DNA of 64,000 nt, from positions 1 to 64,000 of the forward strand of contig CAITNS010000078.1 of NCBI GenBank assembly GCA_903893815.1, in the 5' to 3' direction. The position numbers and the translations under genes were made by a program. The DNA is from an uncultured Bacteroidota bacterium. Its GTDB lineage: Bacteria > Bacteroidota > Bacteroidia > B-17B0 > Aurantibacillaceae. The notes beneath the pieces were generated by a model. It was given only the letters and a program-made list of their open reading frames with translations. It did not search any database and had not been told where the DNA came from. Positions 29,318 through 39,133 of the stretch are shown here, piece by piece; position 1 is the first letter of the stretch, and each line of letters starts with the position of its first letter.

Positions 29318-29875
29318 TTATTCGCCCTCATTTTCTTTTTTATAACCTTCGTAGTAATACGATTGGTCAATACCTTTAAAAATAATTTCACGATTATCTA
29401 CCTCGTTTGTTAAATTATTAATTAATAAAGTTCTTAACTCTAAATCATTTATTGGACTTCGTTCCATGGCTTGTAAATATAGTTCTTTGCTTACAAATTG
29501 CCAGTTTACAACTTTTTTTAGTGATTTTTTTAATATCAAATCTAACCAAATCCGCATTGTTCTACCATTGCCCTCCATAAATGGATGCGCAATATTCATT
29601 TCTACATACTTTGCAATAATTTCTTCAAAGGTATGTTGCGGCATTTGTTCAATCTTTATTAAAATTTCGGTTAAGTATAAAGTGTTTGCAAACCTAAAAC
29701 CTCCTTTACTAATATTTACAGTACGTATTTTACCAGCAAAATCATGCAAGCCATCAAAAAGATAATGATGAATTTGTTTTAAACCGTTAGTTGTGCCAAT
29801 TTCAATAGTATTAATATCTTTAGATAAAAATAATCTATAGGCGTTTTCTAAACTATGCTTATCTATGTTTTTCAC
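29318..29875 (-). CDS. fic: Class III Fic-domain AMP transferase (NmFic-like)
   Basis: A 185-residue Fic protein, expected to move AMP from ATP onto a target protein. The active-site motif [12 protein letters not shown] is at residues 97-108. The C-terminal helix carries SYYYEG (172-177), which fits the class III inhibitory motif [S/T]xxxE[G/N] that blocks ATP binding in the same protein. The overall sequence strongly recalls Neisseria NmFic, which modifies the gyrase B subunit. The start is GTG (29873-29875) with an AGGA ribosome binding site six bases upstream. It begins 22 bases after proS and is followed by gpmA. Confidence 0.92.
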
Positions 29876-32893: not shown

Positions 32894-34384
32894 ATGAAAC
32901 TTTTATTTAGTGTAACAACATTGAGTTTGTTATCTATATCGCTTATATCTCAAAACGACATTGATGCGATGAGATATTCCCAAACATTTTTTGGAGGAAC
33001 GTCTCGCAGTAAAGCAATGGCGGGTTCTTTTGGCGCTTTAGGAGCCGATGGTTCTTGTATGGGCGCTAATCCTGCTGGAATTGGTTTGTATAAAAAAGGA
33101 GATATTAATATTTCTTTTGGATTAAGATTTTTTTCGGTTGATGCCACTCACAACGGAACATCCAACAAAAATTTTAAAGCCAATGTTCCCTTTGACGGAT
33201 TAACTTTAGTGGGCGCTTGGGATAGTAAACAGCAGCCAGATAATCATCATGCTATAGGCTTATCATGCAATCAAATTGTTAATTTTAATAGTAATACAAC
33301 TATCGAAGGACGATCTAATTTTAAAAGTATTGCTAATGATTTTTTATCATCAGCCAATGGCAAGGGATTATCGAATTTAGATAATGGTTATTCAGGTATG
33401 GCTTATGATAATTATTTAATTGACATGTATGATACTTTAAATAATAAATATGCTAGTATTATTAATACAAAATATGATGTTCTGCAATCAAAAACCATTG
33501 AAACAACGGGTAGAATAAACGAATGGAATATTAACTATGCTTATGGCTATAAGGATAAATTGTATTTAGGCGTTTCATTAGGAATACCAATGCTAACCTA
33601 CAATCATAATTCGGTTTATTCAGAAGTGGATGATAAAGATTCGATGAGGCTTTCAACTAATTCCTCTCCTACTTATAGTTATTCGGGCGTGGGTGGTTTT
33701 AAAAGCATGTCGTATCAGGAAACCTATAAAACAACAGGAACGGGGTATAATTTAAAAGTAGGTTTAATATATCGAGCGGCCGACTTTATTAGATTAGGAG
33801 CAAGTTTCCATTCGCCAACCGTTTATAATTTATCGGACGGTTATTTATATAAAATGAATGCTAATTACGATGAGGGCGGAGCCTATACTACTCAATATCC
33901 TCCCGATAATGGTGGTAAATTTAATTATCAGGTAATTACTCCTATGAAATTTACGGGAAGCGTTGCTTTATTGTATAAAAAAATGGGAGCTATAAATATT
34001 GATTATGATATTATTAATTATAAGCAAGCCTCATTACAAAGCTCTCCACAAGTATTTACAGGTGTTAACACTACCATCAGAAATAAATACAGCCAAACCT
34101 CTAATTTAAGAGTGGGAGCCGAAGCTAATTTAAAACCTATGTTTGTAAGATTAGGTTATGCGATGTATGGTAGTCCATTTGGAGAAACTTTTTCTGGAGA
34201 TTTTGTAAGAACCTTTTTTACTGGTGGAGTTGGTTTTAAAAGAGAGAAAATGTATGTAGATGTATCATTTACCAGAAGTATGAATAGCGAAAATTACTAT
34301 ATGTATAACCCTAATTTCGTCGATAAATCCACTTTAAAAAATTATGGCACGACAATTGCTGTTACAGTTGGCAGTAAGTTTTAG
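32894..34384 (+). CDS. OmpP1/FadL-family outer membrane beta-barrel protein
   Basis: A 496-residue outer membrane protein with a signal peptide (1-19, ending LISQ). The N-terminal GGTSRSKAMAGSFGALGADGS followed by NPAGIGLYKKGDINIS is the typical plug-like hatch and first strand of the FadL/OmpP1 group. The remainder is a string of amphipathic strands and ends with aromatic-terminated TIAVTVGSKF. FadL members take up hydrophobic compounds; the ligand here is not evident. It lies downstream of the low-complexity lipoprotein gene and ahead of a strong terminator. Confidence 0.85.
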   Translation: MKLLFSVTTLSLLSISLISQNDIDAMRYSQTFFGGTSRSKAMAGSFGALGADGSCMGANPAGIGLYKKGDINISFGLRFFSVDATHNGTSNKNFKANVPFDGLTLVGAWDSKQQPDNHHAIGLSCNQIVNFNSNTTIEGRSNFKSIANDFLSSANGKGLSNLDNGYSGMAYDNYLIDMYDTLNNKYASIINTKYDVLQSKTIETTGRINEWNINYAYGYKDKLYLGVSLGIPMLTYNHNSVYSEVDDKDSMRLSTNSSPTYSYSGVGGFKSMSYQETYKTTGTGYNLKVGLIYRAADFIRLGASFHSPTVYNLSDGYLYKMNANYDEGGAYTTQYPPDNGGKFNYQVITPMKFTGSVALLYKKMGAINIDYDIINYKQASLQSSPQVFTGVNTTIRNKYSQTSNLRVGAEANLKPMFVRLGYAMYGSPFGETFSGDFVRTFFTGGVGFKREKMYVDVSFTRSMNSENYYMYNPNFVDKSTLKNYGTTIAVTVGSKF

Positions 34385-34412
34385 TGTAGTTTTGTTCTAG
34401 ATTAATTGGTTA

Positions 34413-34449
34413 GAAAGTCTCGGGGTAGTGGCCGAGACTTTCGTTTTTT
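34413..34449 (+). terminator. Intrinsic terminator of the OmpP1/FadL-like gene
   Basis: An 11-bp perfect stem (GAAAGTCTCGG with CCGAGACTTTC) with an 8-base loop, followed by GTTTTTT. Confidence 0.88.
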
Positions 34450-34470
34450 ATAGACTTTTTTTTGTTTTTT

Positions 34471-34525
34471 TACCGCAACTCTTACGCTAAAGCTTCAGCG
34501 AAGGCGCAAAGAATTGCAGAGTTTT
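34471..34525. repeat. Degenerate repeat (ACCGCAA...GGCGCAAAG type) at the mobile mystery protein B break point
   Basis: The sequence ACCGCAACTCTTACGC and AGCGAAGGCGCAAAGAATTGCAGAG resembles the repeat at 28152-28197. It begins where similarity of the Fic pseudogene stops. Confidence 0.45.
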
Positions 34526-34736
34526 ATAGCTTGATAAAATTTTATTCCAATGTTTTTTTCGGTTAACCTAAATTCACCAGCCTATTTCCAAACATCTTTA
34601 AGCATTCGTTTATGTAATTCTTTAGCGCAAATTCATCCAATTCACCATGTGTGGTTATAGAATCAATTAATAATCCATCTTGCGCCTCTTCACTCAAAGG
34701 AGTTTGACCATCTTTATATTCTAGTTCTAATCCCAT
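34519..34736 (-). pseudogene. Mobile mystery protein B (Fic family), degenerate
   Basis: The minus strand from ATG 34736 encodes MGLELEYKDGQTPLSEEAQ, then the start of a Fic-type fold (LLIDSITTHGELDEF), typical of mobile mystery protein B (TIGR02613). After about 39 codons an internal stretch is missing and the frame changes: from 34620 another frame reads ELHKRMLKDVWK, a TAG stop (34582-34584) where the family has Trp, then AGEFRLTEKNIGIKFYQ. The Fic active-site motif is lost because the 3' end is replaced by an intergenic repeat. The start overlaps the mobile mystery protein A gene by 10 bases, as in intact pairs. The family name rests on motif recall. Confidence 0.85.
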
Positions 34737-35191
34737 AAGTGTTTTGGCATTGTATCAATTAATTCTCTTGCTTTACTTTTAATATTTTTCTCTAACCTCT
34801 TCTTAGAATTTTCCTGATCTTCTAATTTCATAGTGTTCGATGTTCTCATAACAATTTTTAATGCAATCTCAGTGGCTCTTTTTTCAATCATTTTTTCTAA
34901 ACTACCTTCCTTAGGAATAAAGCCATATACCAATTGCATATCCAATGCTTGTGCTGTTTCTCTTAAAGACTTTAATGTTATAGACTGACTAGCTTCTCTT
35001 TGTTCTATTTCGCTAATACTTTGTGGAGTAATTTCCATTTTTTCTCCTAATTGCCTTAAAGACATTTTCAGAGCAGTTCTTACAGTATAAATCCATCCCT
35101 TTTTAGGAACTATTACTTCATTTAAAGCTCTAAAGCTCTTTAACTTTCTATCTACTTGCTCAATTAAGAGTGCATGTTTTGAATTATTCAT
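34727..35191 (-). CDS. Mobile mystery protein A (XRE-type HTH regulator)
   Basis: A 154-residue protein with a helix-turn-helix at about 43-66 (MSLRQLGEKMEITPQSISEI) followed by QREASQSITLKSLRETAQAL and QLVYGFIPKEGSLEKMIE, the pattern of TIGR02612. This family is found with mobile mystery protein B in scattered genomes and mobile regions, and the pair resembles an HTH antitoxin with a Fic toxin. Here the regulator is intact while the partner is broken. Three CCTGATA boxes upstream are candidate binding sites. Confidence 0.88.
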   Translation of the reverse strand: MNNSKHALLIEQVDRKLKSFRALNEVIVPKKGWIYTVRTALKMSLRQLGEKMEITPQSISEIEQREASQSITLKSLRETAQALDMQLVYGFIPKEGSLEKMIEKRATEIALKIVMRTSNTMKLEDQENSKKRLEKNIKSKARELIDTMPKHLWD

Positions 35192-35196
35192 AAGGT

Positions 35197-35277
35197 TATA
35201 GCCTGATAATTTATTTCAAAATTAAGGATATTACCTGATAAATACAAATTATTTTAAGTATATAACCTGATAAATAT
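35197..35277 (-). promoter_or_regulatory. Three CCTGATA boxes at exact 32-bp spacing, candidate operators
   Basis: CCTGATA occurs at 35202-35208, 35234-35240 and 35266-35272, each in the context TTA/TAA-CCTGATAA-AT. The period of 32 bases is three turns of the helix, so all boxes face the same side. They begin 10 bases upstream of the regulator start codon. Confidence 0.6.
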
Positions 35278-35656
35278 ATAATTTTTTAAGCTTAAAACCT
35301 TAAATATGTAAATTCAAATAAATGATTTTCAAGTACTTAAATTCAATCGTGCCCGTAAAAGGTTGATTGCTCAACACCTTCGGTCCGGAAGGGACCCGAA
35401 ATAATTTTAAATTTAACTAAATTACAGTAATTTCCGCTTTTTCTGAATGAAAAACTACGGTATACCGAAGTTTTTACAAATTCGTTTTATAAAATTGGAA
35501 AATTCTTACCTATTTTGAATGGTAAATCCCAACTAAAAAACAATAAATAACTACACATGAAATTTTTACAGAATGGCATCACAAATTTAATACTAGTGCA
35601 TAAATGCAAACTTAAAATGAGTGAATTTGATTACTCACATAAATATAAATTTAAAG
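35278..35656. other. Gene-free stretch with structured and palindromic elements
   Basis: This AT-rich gap has no gene that I can support. It holds a GC-rich double hairpin segment (35349-35401), a palindrome CGGTATACCG (35458-35467, extended to 16 bases with one mismatch pair), a hairpin TGAGT/ACTCA (35618-35637), and a 16-base direct repeat AAATGCAAACTTAAAA at 35602-35617 that recurs at 35662-35677 inside the antitoxin gene. Confidence 0.5.
35349..35401. other. GC-rich segment with two hairpins
   Basis: Two adjacent imperfect hairpins: AAGGTTGA with TCAACACCTT, and TTCGGTCC with GGGACCCGAA. Base composition contrasts sharply with its surroundings. It may be a mobile-element remnant, a recombination site or a small RNA; none can be decided from sequence. 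Confidence 0.45.
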
Positions 35657-35896
35657 ATGGCAAATGCAAACTTAAAAAAGAGAATAGTTGATTGCGTAGA
35701 GCAAATTGATGACGAAAAAATATTAGAAGCTGTTTATACGTTATTAAATGGACAAGTTGCTAATAGTGATTATGAATTAAGCGCAGAAGATATAAAAATT
35801 ATAAATGCCCGAAGAAAAGCGGTCTTGAAAGGTTCAGAAAAGACTTATACAGTAGCACAAGTAAAGAAGAAATTATTAAAGAATTTAGGTAAATGA
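35657..35896 (+). CDS. Antitoxin of a RelE/ParE-type toxin-antitoxin module
   Basis: A 79-residue acidic-basic protein (MANANLKKRIVDCVEQIDDE, then ILEAVYTLLNG and LSAEDIKIINARRKAVLKGSEKTYTVAQV) of the kind found as the first gene of RelE/ParE modules in Bacteroidota. The C-terminal half with RRKAVLKGSEKTYT is the likely toxin-wrapping segment. The stop overlaps the ATG of the toxin frame (ATGA at 35893-35896), typical for such pairs. I start at 35657; the codon at 35621 gives an unsupported extension. The toxin gene is broken. Confidence 0.75.
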   Translation: MANANLKKRIVDCVEQIDDEKILEAVYTLLNGQVANSDYELSAEDIKIINARRKAVLKGSEKTYTVAQVKKKLLKNLGK

Positions 35897-36129
35897 TTTA
35901 TTAAATAATAGTTCTCGAAAGTGTTTATCTGGAACTGAAGGAGGTATCGTCTTATTATTAATCTAAGCAAAAAGATTTAGGTATTAGGTTTGTTTTAAGT
36001 TGGGAAACTGCAATGGGACATATAAAAGAAGCGCCCTTATTATATCAAAAGAAAAACAAACAATTAAGAACAATCAAGTTAAATAAGTTTCCGTATTTAT
36101 TAGTTTTTGAAATTATTGAAAATAAACTA
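35893..36129 (+). pseudogene. RelE/ParE-type toxin gene with two stop codons and lost 3' end
   Basis: Read from ATG 35893, the frame gives MIY-stop-IIVLESVYLELKEVSSYY-stop-SKQKDLGIRFVLSWETAMGHIKEAP, then RTIKLNKFPYLLVFEIIENKLI. This is a RelE/ParE toxin sequence (LKEVSSYY, KQKDLGIRF, LNKFPYLLVFEI) with TAA at codon 4 (35902-35904) and at codon 23 (35959-35961), each explained by one base change from AAA and GAA or AAA. After KLI the expected C-terminal strand with its catalytic residues is absent: the frame runs into the 3' end of a T9SS cargo gene on the other strand. Confidence 0.85.
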
Positions 36130-36870
36130 ATATCTAATAACAACTATTTTTCTCATAATAACTTTTTTGTTAGCAGTAACATAAACAGTATAGAATCCAT
36201 CTTGCAAACTTTCAGTGCTTACTATAAGTTTATTATTTTCATTACTTTTCATGTTTTTCCGATCCTTTAAAACTAATTCTCCTAACTGGTTATAAACAGA
36301 AATATCAGCAAATAAACTTTTAGCTGATTTAAATTCTATTGTAAAATGAGATGACGTCACGCTTGGATAAATATTTATATTTTCTTCGTTTTCTAATTCT
36401 TTTACCGAAATGGCATTTATTGCATTGTAAATTACATCACAATATGCAGAATCAGAGTTATTAGTAGTAAAAAAAACATACCGGTATATACTTTGTCCAA
36501 CTTGTCCTTCTGGTAAATAATGTCCAGAAAACGATTTATTAGAATCTGCTAATGCAACTATATCACCATGAATATAAAAAGGAGAAGATCCAGCCAAACG
36601 TGGGTTACCACAAAGAATTCCCCAGCACATATAATTAAATGTATTTGAAGTAAATGAAACCTCATACCTTTTTACTTTTACATCTAACTCGGCTTGTATG
36701 GTATTAATAATAACAATTTTATTTGCAACTAACTCCGCATCTAAAGCATTACCATTTATTGTAATCGTAGAAGCAGTAATATCAATTCCTTCTCTATAAA
36801 TTTTTAATACTTGAGAAAAACCTAGCTGCTTTAGGAATAATACGATTACGATAATATAAAATGTTCGCAT
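36127..36870 (-). CDS. T9SS-secreted protein of unknown function
   Basis: A 247-residue protein with a signal peptide (1-19, ending LGFSQ) and a type A T9SS sorting domain (about 165-247: IYPSVTSSHFTIEF, DISVYNQLGELVLKD, DGFYTVYVTANKKVI). The central part has strands such as KVKRYEVSFTSNTFNYMCWG and looks like the GldM-C/beta-sandwich type region of some Bacteroidota proteins, but I cannot name it. It lies 34 bases downstream of another T9SS cargo gene and its 3' end is fused to a truncated toxin gene. Confidence 0.75.
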   Translation of the reverse strand: MRTFYIIVIVLFLKQLGFSQVLKIYREGIDITASTITINGNALDAELVANKIVIINTIQAELDVKVKRYEVSFTSNTFNYMCWGILCGNPRLAGSSPFYIHGDIVALADSNKSFSGHYLPEGQVGQSIYRYVFFTTNNSDSAYCDVIYNAINAISVKELENEENINIYPSVTSSHFTIEFKSAKSLFADISVYNQLGELVLKDRKNMKSNENNKLIVSTESLQDGFYTVYVTANKKVIMRKIVVIRY

Positions 36871-36904
36871 GATATAAATTTTTAGTTGAAAAAAATTAAA
36901 GTAA

Positions 36905-38089
36905 CTATTTAGAAATAACTATTTTTCTTGTGTGAAATATTCCTTCTGCTTTAAAACTTACAAAGTATATACCATTGCTTAAATCACTTACATCAATTGT
37001 TGCTTTAGAAACAGAAGTATTATACTCTAAATTATTTAAAGTTTTAATTATTTGCCCTACAGAATTATACACATAAATATGTCCCACACCATTTGTAGTA
37101 GAAGAATAATTTAAAAATAAAGTATTTCCAATTGGATTAAGTACATTAAACTGCAAATTGCTTAAACTATTTTCTTGAATTCCAACTGCTGGCGTTACTA
37201 AATATTTTTTATTTGCATTAAGCACTTCTCTATTTTGAAATGCGCCATTTTTTACAACCGCGGCTACAATTTGAATGCGATTAGGCTCAATATTCATTGC
37301 TTCTGTTGTACTATTTTTAAGAGGAAGTGTAAAAGAAAAGTTTTCAGTATAATTATTACCAATAACTGGATTTGCGGGAATAATACCAGCGTTACCAAAA
37401 AAACCTGAAGGTTGATATTTTACGGGATTGATAAAAGCATATGACTCTGCCCAATTTCCAATACTATTTGGATAAGTAACTACATTGTAACCATCAAGTA
37501 CACCATTTGAAGCATTTACATTTTGACCGTATGATTCTCCAGCAGGACCTTTTACAGTGTCCTGGGTTAAAACTGCGTAAATTCTTAAATCACCAGATGC
37601 AATATCACAAAAATTAGCTGTTACATTAATATTTACAGCACGCGTTGTTGAATTATATGTATTCGTGATATTAACCGAAACTGGTACATTTATGGAATTA
37701 ATTTGATTATTAAACGCAATTGCTTCACTCTCTACGCCTTCAGATGTAGGTCCTTGTTGAAGCATGTAATTGTTAGGGAAAAAAGTACGATCTATCATAA
37801 CCATCGATTGATATTCGAGATTAAAAATACTACCAAAAGCATAATAAGGCTTATTTTGTTCAGACCAAGAGCCAACACCAATTGGAGCTTGGTTGTAAAC
37901 TACCATAGCAATTTGATTTTTATGAGCTGCGTATAATGGATTAGTATAATCGCGGATATGAAAGTAGCAGGGGCCGCAATTTTTAGCACAGGACTGTTCC
38001 ATAAGCACCATTTTTGTTGCACATGGATTTTGAGCAATAAGTGAGTTAACTATAATAACTGATAAACTGACTAGTAAGGAATTTTTCAT
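36905..38089 (-). CDS. Omp28-like secreted protein with thioredoxin-type CxxC and T9SS sorting domain
   Basis: A 394-residue exported protein. After the signal peptide (1-20) a thioredoxin-like segment carries the pair CGPC (38-41) in AKNCGPCYFHIRDYTN; Omp28-family proteins of Bacteroidota have the same plan (VLMEQSCAKNCGPC, then PLYAAHKNQIAMVVYN). A beta-rich central domain (about 150-300) follows, then a type A T9SS sorting domain (about 310-394: GHIYVYNSVGQIIKTL, SNGIYFVSFKAEG). A role in disulfide chemistry or adhesion is possible. Start at 38089 chosen for the signal peptide. Confidence 0.8.
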   Translation of the reverse strand: MKNSLLVSLSVIIVNSLIAQNPCATKMVLMEQSCAKNCGPCYFHIRDYTNPLYAAHKNQIAMVVYNQAPIGVGSWSEQNKPYYAFGSIFNLEYQSMVMIDRTFFPNNYMLQQGPTSEGVESEAIAFNNQINSINVPVSVNITNTYNSTTRAVNINVTANFCDIASGDLRIYAVLTQDTVKGPAGESYGQNVNASNGVLDGYNVVTYPNSIGNWAESYAFINPVKYQPSGFFGNAGIIPANPVIGNNYTENFSFTLPLKNSTTEAMNIEPNRIQIVAAVVKNGAFQNREVLNANKKYLVTPAVGIQENSLSNLQFNVLNPIGNTLFLNYSSTTNGVGHIYVYNSVGQIIKTLNNLEYNTSVSKATIDVSDLSNGIYFVSFKAEGIFHTRKIVISK

Positions 38090-38251
38090 GATTTCTTTTA
38101 TTTTGTTTATTACGGAAAAAGTAAAGAAAATTTTGTAACTGTGCAAATAAAATTCAATATTTTTTGAATCCTAATAGCAATTGGGATTATTGAAACCTGT
38201 TATCACGATAGTAATCGGGATCGTTTGATAGGTATTATGATTCTAAAAAGC

Positions 38252-39127
38252 TTAAAACTCTCTTTTAGCAGCAATTAAGGTGTTTTTTAACAAGGAAGCA
38301 ATGGTCATGGGACCAACGCCACCTGGCACGGGTGTAATATAACCAGCTTTTTTAGAAACCTCTTCAAATTGCACATCGCCCACTAATTTAAAACCACTTT
38401 TTTTAGAAACATCATCCACGCGATTAATGCCTACATCAATAATCACAGCACCTTCTTTAACCATATCGGCTGTTACAAAATTTGGTTTACCAATAGCAGC
38501 AATAATGATATCAGCGTTTAAAGTATGTTCTTTTAAATTTTGAGTATGGCTATGGCAAAGTGTAACCGTGCAATTACCTAAATTGGTGTTTTTAGCCATT
38601 AAAATACTCATGGGTGAACCCACAATATGGCTTCTTCCAATAACTACACAATGTTTACCATCGGTTGGAATATTATAACGTTCTAATAATTGTACAATAC
38701 CAAAAGGCGTAGCGCTCACATAAGTTGGTAAATTCAATACTAAACGACCAACGTTTATTGGATGAAAACCATCTACATCTTTACTTGGTTTGATAGCTTC
38801 AATAATTTTTTGTTCGGAAATATGACGAGGCAATGGCAATTGAACAATGTAACCATCAATATCATCATCGTTATTTAAGTCTTCAATTTTTGCTAATAAT
38901 TTTTGTTCAGAAACATAAGCTTCAAAGGTTACTAATGTTGATTTAAATCCAACATTTTCACAAGCTTTTACTTTACTTCCCACATAAGTTTGAGAAGCAG
39001 GATCATCTCCCACTAAAATAGCGGCTAAATGTGGTTGCTTTTTTCCTTTGGCAATTAATTCTTTTACTTCTAATGCAATTTCAGATTGAAGTTCAAGTGA
39101 TATTTTTTTTCCGTCGATGAGTATCAT
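38252..39127 (-). CDS. folD: Bifunctional methylenetetrahydrofolate dehydrogenase / methenyl-THF cyclohydrolase
   Basis: A 291-residue folate enzyme that oxidises 5,10-methylene-THF and hydrolyses methenyl-THF. It has the catalytic Tyr/Lys region [37 protein letters not shown], the NADP-binding [13 protein letters not shown] and the signature [19 protein letters not shown] 39127 is preferred to TTG 39133. It is separated from ffh by a repeat-rich 160-base gap. Confidence 0.96.
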
Positions 39128-39133
39128 TTTCAA

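Follow-up and report, generated by a model that had tools for sequence, protein, structure and literature searches.

A probable HTH–Fic toxin–antitoxin-like module, recently inactivated in a Bacteroidota genome, and a candidate inhibitory motif in its surviving partner

When a mobile gene pair has lost one of its two genes, can the surviving gene and its relatives tell us what the pair does? This question is raised by a 64,000-nucleotide stretch of contig CAITNS010000078.1 (assembly GCA_903893815.1; hereafter the window, its genome being G000) from an uncultured Bacteroidota bacterium of the family Aurantibacillaceae, in which a gene for mobile mystery protein A lies next to the remains of one for mobile mystery protein B, a Fic-family protein. 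The idea that the mobile mystery families form an addiction module appears in the TIGRFAM family notes. Known Fic proteins are restrained by a helix carrying the motif (S/T)xxxE(G/N), and in class I an antitoxin supplies that helix, according to PMC3667792. We examined whether A could be such a partner of B, drawing on profile searches, structure models and comparisons across genomes.

An intact A gene overlaps a B pseudogene

The pair is encoded on the minus strand, in the order A then B.

34727–35191, minus strand: mobile mystery protein A, intact, 154 aa, with an HTH_3 domain (TIGR02612, 147.6 bits; PF01381, 26.4 bits)
34934–35089, minus strand: helix-turn-helix of A, residues 35–86 (PF01381 match)
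34531–34736, minus strand: remnant of B, with 36 codons at 34629–34736 followed by 31 codons in another frame at 34531–34623 (profile matches and alignments)

The reading frame of A is free of stops, and its TIGR02612 match spans residues 9–154 and exceeds the family cut-off of 122.6 bits; the HTH_3 match exceeds its cut-off of 23. In fold and profile searches, A weakly resembles helix-turn-helix proteins of the HipB, HigA and MBF1 kind (best Foldseek E value 0.46). B begins with an ATG at 34736, so placed that the two genes overlap by 10 nt at the A stop; the 57-aa reading frame that it opens scores 21.7 bits against TIGR02613. A six-frame search of the genome recovered B in two frames with stops inside (profile positions 2–56 and 31–85; 36.7 and 20.2 bits, against a cut-off of 124.4), and B is thus a pseudogene of the TIGR02613 family rather than a full-length member.

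We mapped the lesions against the intact B of G748 (locus L221), a genome of the same family. Codons 37–64 (28 codons) are replaced by 5 nt, a net deletion of 79 nt by manual count that shifts the frame. Beyond it the other frame reads KELHKRMLKDVWK-stop-AGEFRLTEKNIGIKFYQ, in which a TAG at 34582–34584 occupies the Trp position of VWKWAG, following the KELHKRM...VWK segment. The 3' half of B, with its Fic motif, is missing: similarity stops near 34531, short of the motif. These results bear out the first-pass annotation, which had named both families and described a complete A beside a B wrecked by an internal deletion with a frame change, a TAG in place of Trp and loss of the 3' end with its Fic motif; only its count of 39 codons kept before the deletion has to be lowered, to 36. 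A separate genome-wide search for the palindrome at the 3' edge of B returned one exact match only.

Sequencing errors would have undone this description, and the nearest genome, G019, speaks against them. Its deletion junction and TAG are identical to those of the window, and it is a separate genome whose porin gene differs from that of the window at 70 of 1,491 bases. Because two genomes share the lesions, we rejected error as their source; a sequencing or assembly artefact, in favour of which we found nothing, is extremely improbable. B was lost before the G000 and G019 copies diverged from each other. The assembly of G019 breaks inside the B remnant, and A was not found in that genome. Over the 286-base B-remnant segment (34385–34670), the two genomes show 3 mismatches and 2 gaps. 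Because this segment is less diverged than the adjoining porin gene, it may have moved between lineages when already broken, and a recent exchange between the G000 and G019 lineages may thus have occurred.

The pair lies in an insert with a second half-dead pair

Comparison with same-genus genomes placed the pair in an insert.

34453–38251, no strand assigned: insert of about 3.8 kb between a porin-like gene and folD (same-genus comparison; junctions at 34452 and 38252 from blastn and sequences)
32894–34384: conserved porin-like gene, left flank of the insert
38252–39133: folD, right flank of the insert
35657–35896, plus strand: complete RelB-like antitoxin of 79 aa (identical at 64 of 78 residues to its intact counterpart in G013)
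35893–36144, plus strand: dead RelE/ParE-like toxin with in-frame TAA at codons 4 and 23 and the 3' end lost

The porin gene and folD are adjacent without the insert in 9 of 17 fetched same-genus stretches, with gaps of 52–127 bp in eight and about 340 bp in L131; the gap is about 10.9 kb in L127, and in the other 7 folD lies outside the fetched DNA. The ends of the insert are common to G019. Short dispersed repeats aside, its DNA matches G019 only, plus G013 for the RelB/RelE part, and no A match above the cut-off was found in 19 same-genus genomes. Besides A and the B remnant, the insert contains the genes for the RelB-like antitoxin and the dead toxin; two further proteins encoded there carry type IX sorting tails. 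The name RelB-like is loose, given an NF048017 score of 17.3 bits, far under the cut-off of 50. The dead toxin is 75% identical, over residues 1–79 and with two TAA codons inside, to the 99-aa toxin of G013 (L136), where the pair is intact (79 and 99 aa). With an intact antitoxin-like gene and a dead toxin-like gene in each, two adjacent pairs of one insert show an equal pattern.

Other elements lie nearby. A palindrome-like element at 35412–35489 with the core CTACGGTATACCGAAG has copies of 83–95% identity in G019, G003 and G007 and one in the window's own genome. The sequence CAATAAATAACTACACATGAAA at 35530–35570, directly before an ATG, occurs in many copies in this and several same-genus genomes and is perhaps a shared leader. 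An intact Fic protein is encoded at 29318–29875 on the minus strand, 5 kb from the dead B; it is class III-like near its C terminus and scores 301.7 bits against PADLOC PDC-S04.

B is lost beside A and not the reverse

If A and B form a toxin–antitoxin pair, decay is predicted to run one way, from loss of B. We surveyed two partly overlapping samples of 395 genomes each, one drawn from the phylum and one from the class, counting common genomes once. B was called intact if it scored over the cut-off, had no inner stop and lay away from a contig end, and doubtful loci were read individually. The first (phylum) sample yielded 32 intact B loci and the second (class) sample 22 more, and an open A stood directly upstream of all 54; 53 of these A genes are full length, and in G467 the match to the A profile begins at position 24. 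Neither sample yielded an intact B lacking A. The reverse case, an open A without an intact B, was found 14 times: in G000, G282, G269, G253, G225, G356, G414, G295, G141, G730, G457, G538, G659 and G703. A strict count of 10 omits G356 and G414, in which A aligns only from position 13–19, and the divergent G295 and G141. A B remnant is visible at 9 of the 14 loci, that of G253 near a contig end. If hits fell equally per base, with B taken as about 0.565 of the pair length, the chance of a 10:0 split would be about 0.003 and that of 14:0 about 0.0003, by our own arithmetic and ignoring kinship.

These counts omit B-profile matches below the cut-off (12 in the first sample and 19 in the second), which are mostly other Fic proteins without A (55–87 bits) together with fragments such as those of G269, G430, G146 and G455; intact-looking B genes at contig edges in G607 and G707 were set apart. 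Not every first-look candidate was scored per genome, and a few matches may be missing. Both genes are damaged in G149, G426, G102 and G353, and B is absent from G542, whose A-like gene is divergent. In an A-centred set of 80 loci, which by its construction is unable to show B without A, A was open at all 80 (contig ends cut it in L082 and L095), and B was broken or absent at 9 and at a contig edge in 2. Two decayed loci have unusual forms: in G102 (L222) one reading frame fuses A 1–100 to B 148–198, a natural deletion fusion, and in G269 (L170) an in-frame internal deletion of B joins profile positions 1–34 and 98–173. The comparative evidence supports A and B as a putative toxin–antitoxin pair, although part of the asymmetry could stem from a lag in the decay of A or from A having a use of its own.

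Operator-like repeats precede the A gene

An HTH protein might bind its own promoter, and the DNA in front of A carries repeats.

35202–35275, minus strand: three operator-like repeats with 32-bp spacing in front of A (core ATCAGG on the minus strand)

On the plus strand the cores read CCTGATAA and stand at 35202, 35234 and 35266. The window repeats match at 15 of 16 positions at a lag of 32, and a fraction of 0.001 of 2,000 shuffles did as well. Among 112 loci, a lag of 33 stood out with a z-score of 38 against mononucleotide shuffles, a value inflated by the relatedness of the loci. At least 12 of 16 positions match at some lag in 99 of the 112, and in 83 of these 99 the best lag is 32 or 33. 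With the lag restricted to 31–34 and at least 12 of 16 matches, repeats were found at 77 of 95 intact-B loci versus 1 of 95 after shuffling. Repeats at these lags also occur at 7 of 12 plasmid loci and, the window included, at 14 of 20 loci with a dead or absent B. Such promoter repeats would fit autorepression by A.

A candidate Fic-inhibiting motif in A

We next consider what A might do to B. The intact B of a relative (L019, modelled in place of the window remnant) is predicted to adopt a Fic fold (pLDDT 86.7), with which a profile search agrees; its nearest structural neighbours are FICD (TMq 0.69) and VbhT (0.66), and EcFicT was also matched. Its active-site motif is HxFxNGNGR. At position 5, the metal ligand, Asn stands in 95 of 97 B proteins, Asp in 1 and Ser in 1, so that the B proteins depart from the canonical HxFx(D/E)GNGRxxR. 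Given Asn instead of the Asp or Glu of AMPylating Fic proteins, the chemistry of B may be different; in a group of Doc proteins, an Asp-to-Asn change at the metal-ligand residue affects metal binding, as reported in PMC4454073. PADLOC matches of B (PDC-S04, 78 bits; SoFic, 39 bits) were dismissed as general Fic matches. A class II inhibitory motif within B was also considered and rejected: (S/T)xxxE(G/N) is absent from 86 of 97 B proteins and scattered in the remaining ones. A B family lacking a conserved inhibitory motif is what would be expected if the inhibitor were external.

The A proteins carry a motif, [T/S]MxLExQ, that resembles the Fic inhibitory motif.

34814–34834, minus strand: TMKLEDQ, residues 120–126 of A, candidate Fic-inhibiting motif (sequence comparison)

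Its Leu and Glu never vary among the A proteins compared (114 from Bacteroidota, 12 from plasmids); Met and Gln occur in 113 of the former and in all 12 of the latter. The inhibitory-type Glu is thus found in 126 of 126 proteins (113 collected A proteins, the window and 12 from plasmids), and Thr or Ser precedes it by four positions in 104 of 114 and 9 of 12, the arrangement of class I. Among separately fetched A proteins without B, G703 has Asp and G542 has Lys at the Glu position. The resemblance to (S/T)xxxE(G/N) is inexact: the window A (TMKLED) does not match it, and 12 of 113 A proteins match it formally at this place, the residue after E124 being Asp in most A proteins, including that of the window, and not Gly or Asn.

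The state of the motif was set against that of B. M.LE.Q is present in every A beside an intact B (96 of 96 from Bacteroidota and 11 of 11 from plasmids, 107 of 107 together) and in 13 of 13 beside a B remnant; of 8 A proteins with no B close by, 3 no longer have it (G703, G295 and G542; Fisher p = 0.0002, to be read knowing that the motif was picked after viewing the alignment and that G295 and G542 are divergent). It is kept without B in L030, G225, G414, G141 and Devosia, for which the absence of B was rechecked; L030 has no B match and was counted as having no remnant. In G703, the HTH half of A retains 18 of 18 conserved columns and the motif block 3 of 10. The three loci that have lost both B and the motif are L217 (G703), L223 (G542) and L230 (G295), and the repeats are also gone in G703. 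The model of A is of low confidence around the motif (pLDDT 59), as might be seen if this part of A took shape on contact with its partner. These comparisons suggest that the A family may restrain its toxin through a small Glu-bearing motif.

Distribution and relation to known systems

A matches occur in 237 of 72,556 plasmid records, 101 of them typed as conjugative, and A alone without a B remnant occurs in other genomes. A phage origin was considered and rejected, because a search of 50,697 phage records gave no match to A. In the accessible parts of the open-licence literature on mobile mystery proteins, Fic-antitoxin-HTH and solo or anti-addiction antitoxins, we found neither a functional test of the two proteins nor any mention of the motif or the repeats.

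The window belongs with the mobile mystery A/B pairs by the A score, the two-frame profile matches of B and the overlapping gene order; it differs in its dead B, and the operator-like repeats and the motif are undescribed in the parts of the literature that we found. The class I Fic pairs (VbhT/VbhA, EcFicT/EcFicA and Fic-1/AntF) are alike in the fold of the toxin, in the (S/T)xxxE-type motif and in having the partner encoded upstream (as class I is defined in the accessible part of PMC3667792). Unlike them, A is an HTH protein whose residue after the Glu is usually Asp, and B has Asn for Asp or Glu in the Fic motif. In the accessible part of Makarova et al. 2009 (PMC2701414), Xre–Fic pairs are listed as toxin–antitoxin candidates, with xre beside Fic_Doc 22 times in Table 2, and solo antitoxins are described as common; the A/B families are unnamed in that table, and neither a decay asymmetry nor an inhibitor motif is given in that part of the paper. 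A shares its HTH fold, weakly, with HigA- and HipB-type antitoxins and differs from them in its toxin partner. The A and B families are already named; how the pair works is a new, testable idea.

Explanations for the surviving A gene

On balance we favour, with reasonable confidence, the reading that the window holds a recently inactivated mobile HTH–Fic toxin–antitoxin-like module, in which A would repress the operon and hold B inactive, likely through E124. In intact copies, A and B would be made from one operon, the start of B overlapping the end of A. A would bind the repeats spaced 32–33 bp before the operon and thereby repress it. It would also keep B inactive, and the most likely way is that the invariant E124 of its motif enters the nucleotide site of B, in line with the inhibitory helix of known Fic antitoxins. 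Here, B has been destroyed by the lesions described above, leaving A and its putative operators. The first-pass annotation took the surviving A for a harmless regulator; with both the repeats and the motif intact, A may still act on its own promoter or counter a B that arrives from outside. The first-pass annotation had likewise proposed an HTH antitoxin and a Fic toxin; one-way decay, the similar second pair and a motif whose losses are confined to some of the A proteins that lack B speak for that proposal. The toxicity of B, its neutralisation by A, the action of A as a repressor and the part played by E124 are inferred.

It is quite possible that the whole module is decaying, that B was simply hit first and that A survives unselected, as a lag. 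The loss of B does appear recent: its remnant codons share a mean 66.8% identity with those of relatives, intact pairs of like distance share 66.9% (sd 5.8; 530 pairs), and we detected no mean drift since its death in this comparison. Remnant codons as similar as intact ones place the loss recently relative to the split from those relatives, so the survival of A may partly be lag, and the near-identity of the remnant segment in G000 and G019 points the same way. The window A also deviates at 7 of 59 conserved columns, against a median of 1 beside intact B, and B-dead loci show slightly more A changes at such columns (one-sided p = 0.03), which points to some relaxation. A lag is harder to reconcile with decay that ran one way in both samples, with no intact B lacking A against 10–14 of the reverse, or with the absence of excess changes in the window A compared with the A of G748, where B is intact: the window branch was longer with 3 of 15 outgroups, none significantly. 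Between these two A genes, dN/dS was 0.163, with dS near saturation.

Selection could instead have kept A as a solo antitoxin or repressor, neutralising the B of incoming mobile elements (anti-addiction) or controlling other promoters. The gene, motif and repeats are all intact, A–B pairs travel on many plasmids, conjugative ones among them, and A persists elsewhere without any B remnant; yet no incoming B was seen for this host, and the nearest intact pair lies in another genus of the family (G748), so that we regard this use of A as possible and somewhat doubtful. We consider it unlikely that A and B are no toxin–antitoxin pair at all, B being a Fic enzyme with another task, A its ordinary repressor and the loss of B that of an accessory gene. 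The near-universal Asn in the Fic motif would suit such a task, and the accessible literature naming 'mobile mystery protein' yielded no functional test to set against it, but a plain repressor needs no invariant motif outside its HTH domain, and the absence of intact B without A would be left unexplained.

Returning to the favoured HTH–Fic module, we tentatively propose a more specific form of it. A could represent a new Fic antitoxin architecture, in which an HTH repressor acts on a 32–33-bp-spaced operator array and a variant motif, [T/S]MxLE[D/N/G]Q, blocks the active site of a Fic toxin with Asn in place of Asp or Glu. After permanent loss of B the motif could erode and the HTH domain stay, so that a former antitoxin becomes a plain regulator; G703 would be an example.

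Taken by itself, the window locus is an ordinary, recently decayed module of a known kind of pair; the interest lies in reading the motif as inhibitory, an idea that can be tested. Mobile mystery A/B pairs are found on many plasmids and across phyla and are named in databases, and we found no functional study of them in the literature searched. The Asn in the active-site motif raises the question of what chemistry B performs. Together, decay in one direction, the motif and the array of operator-like repeats would give the loose idea of an addiction module the form of a concrete mechanism that can be tested at a single residue.
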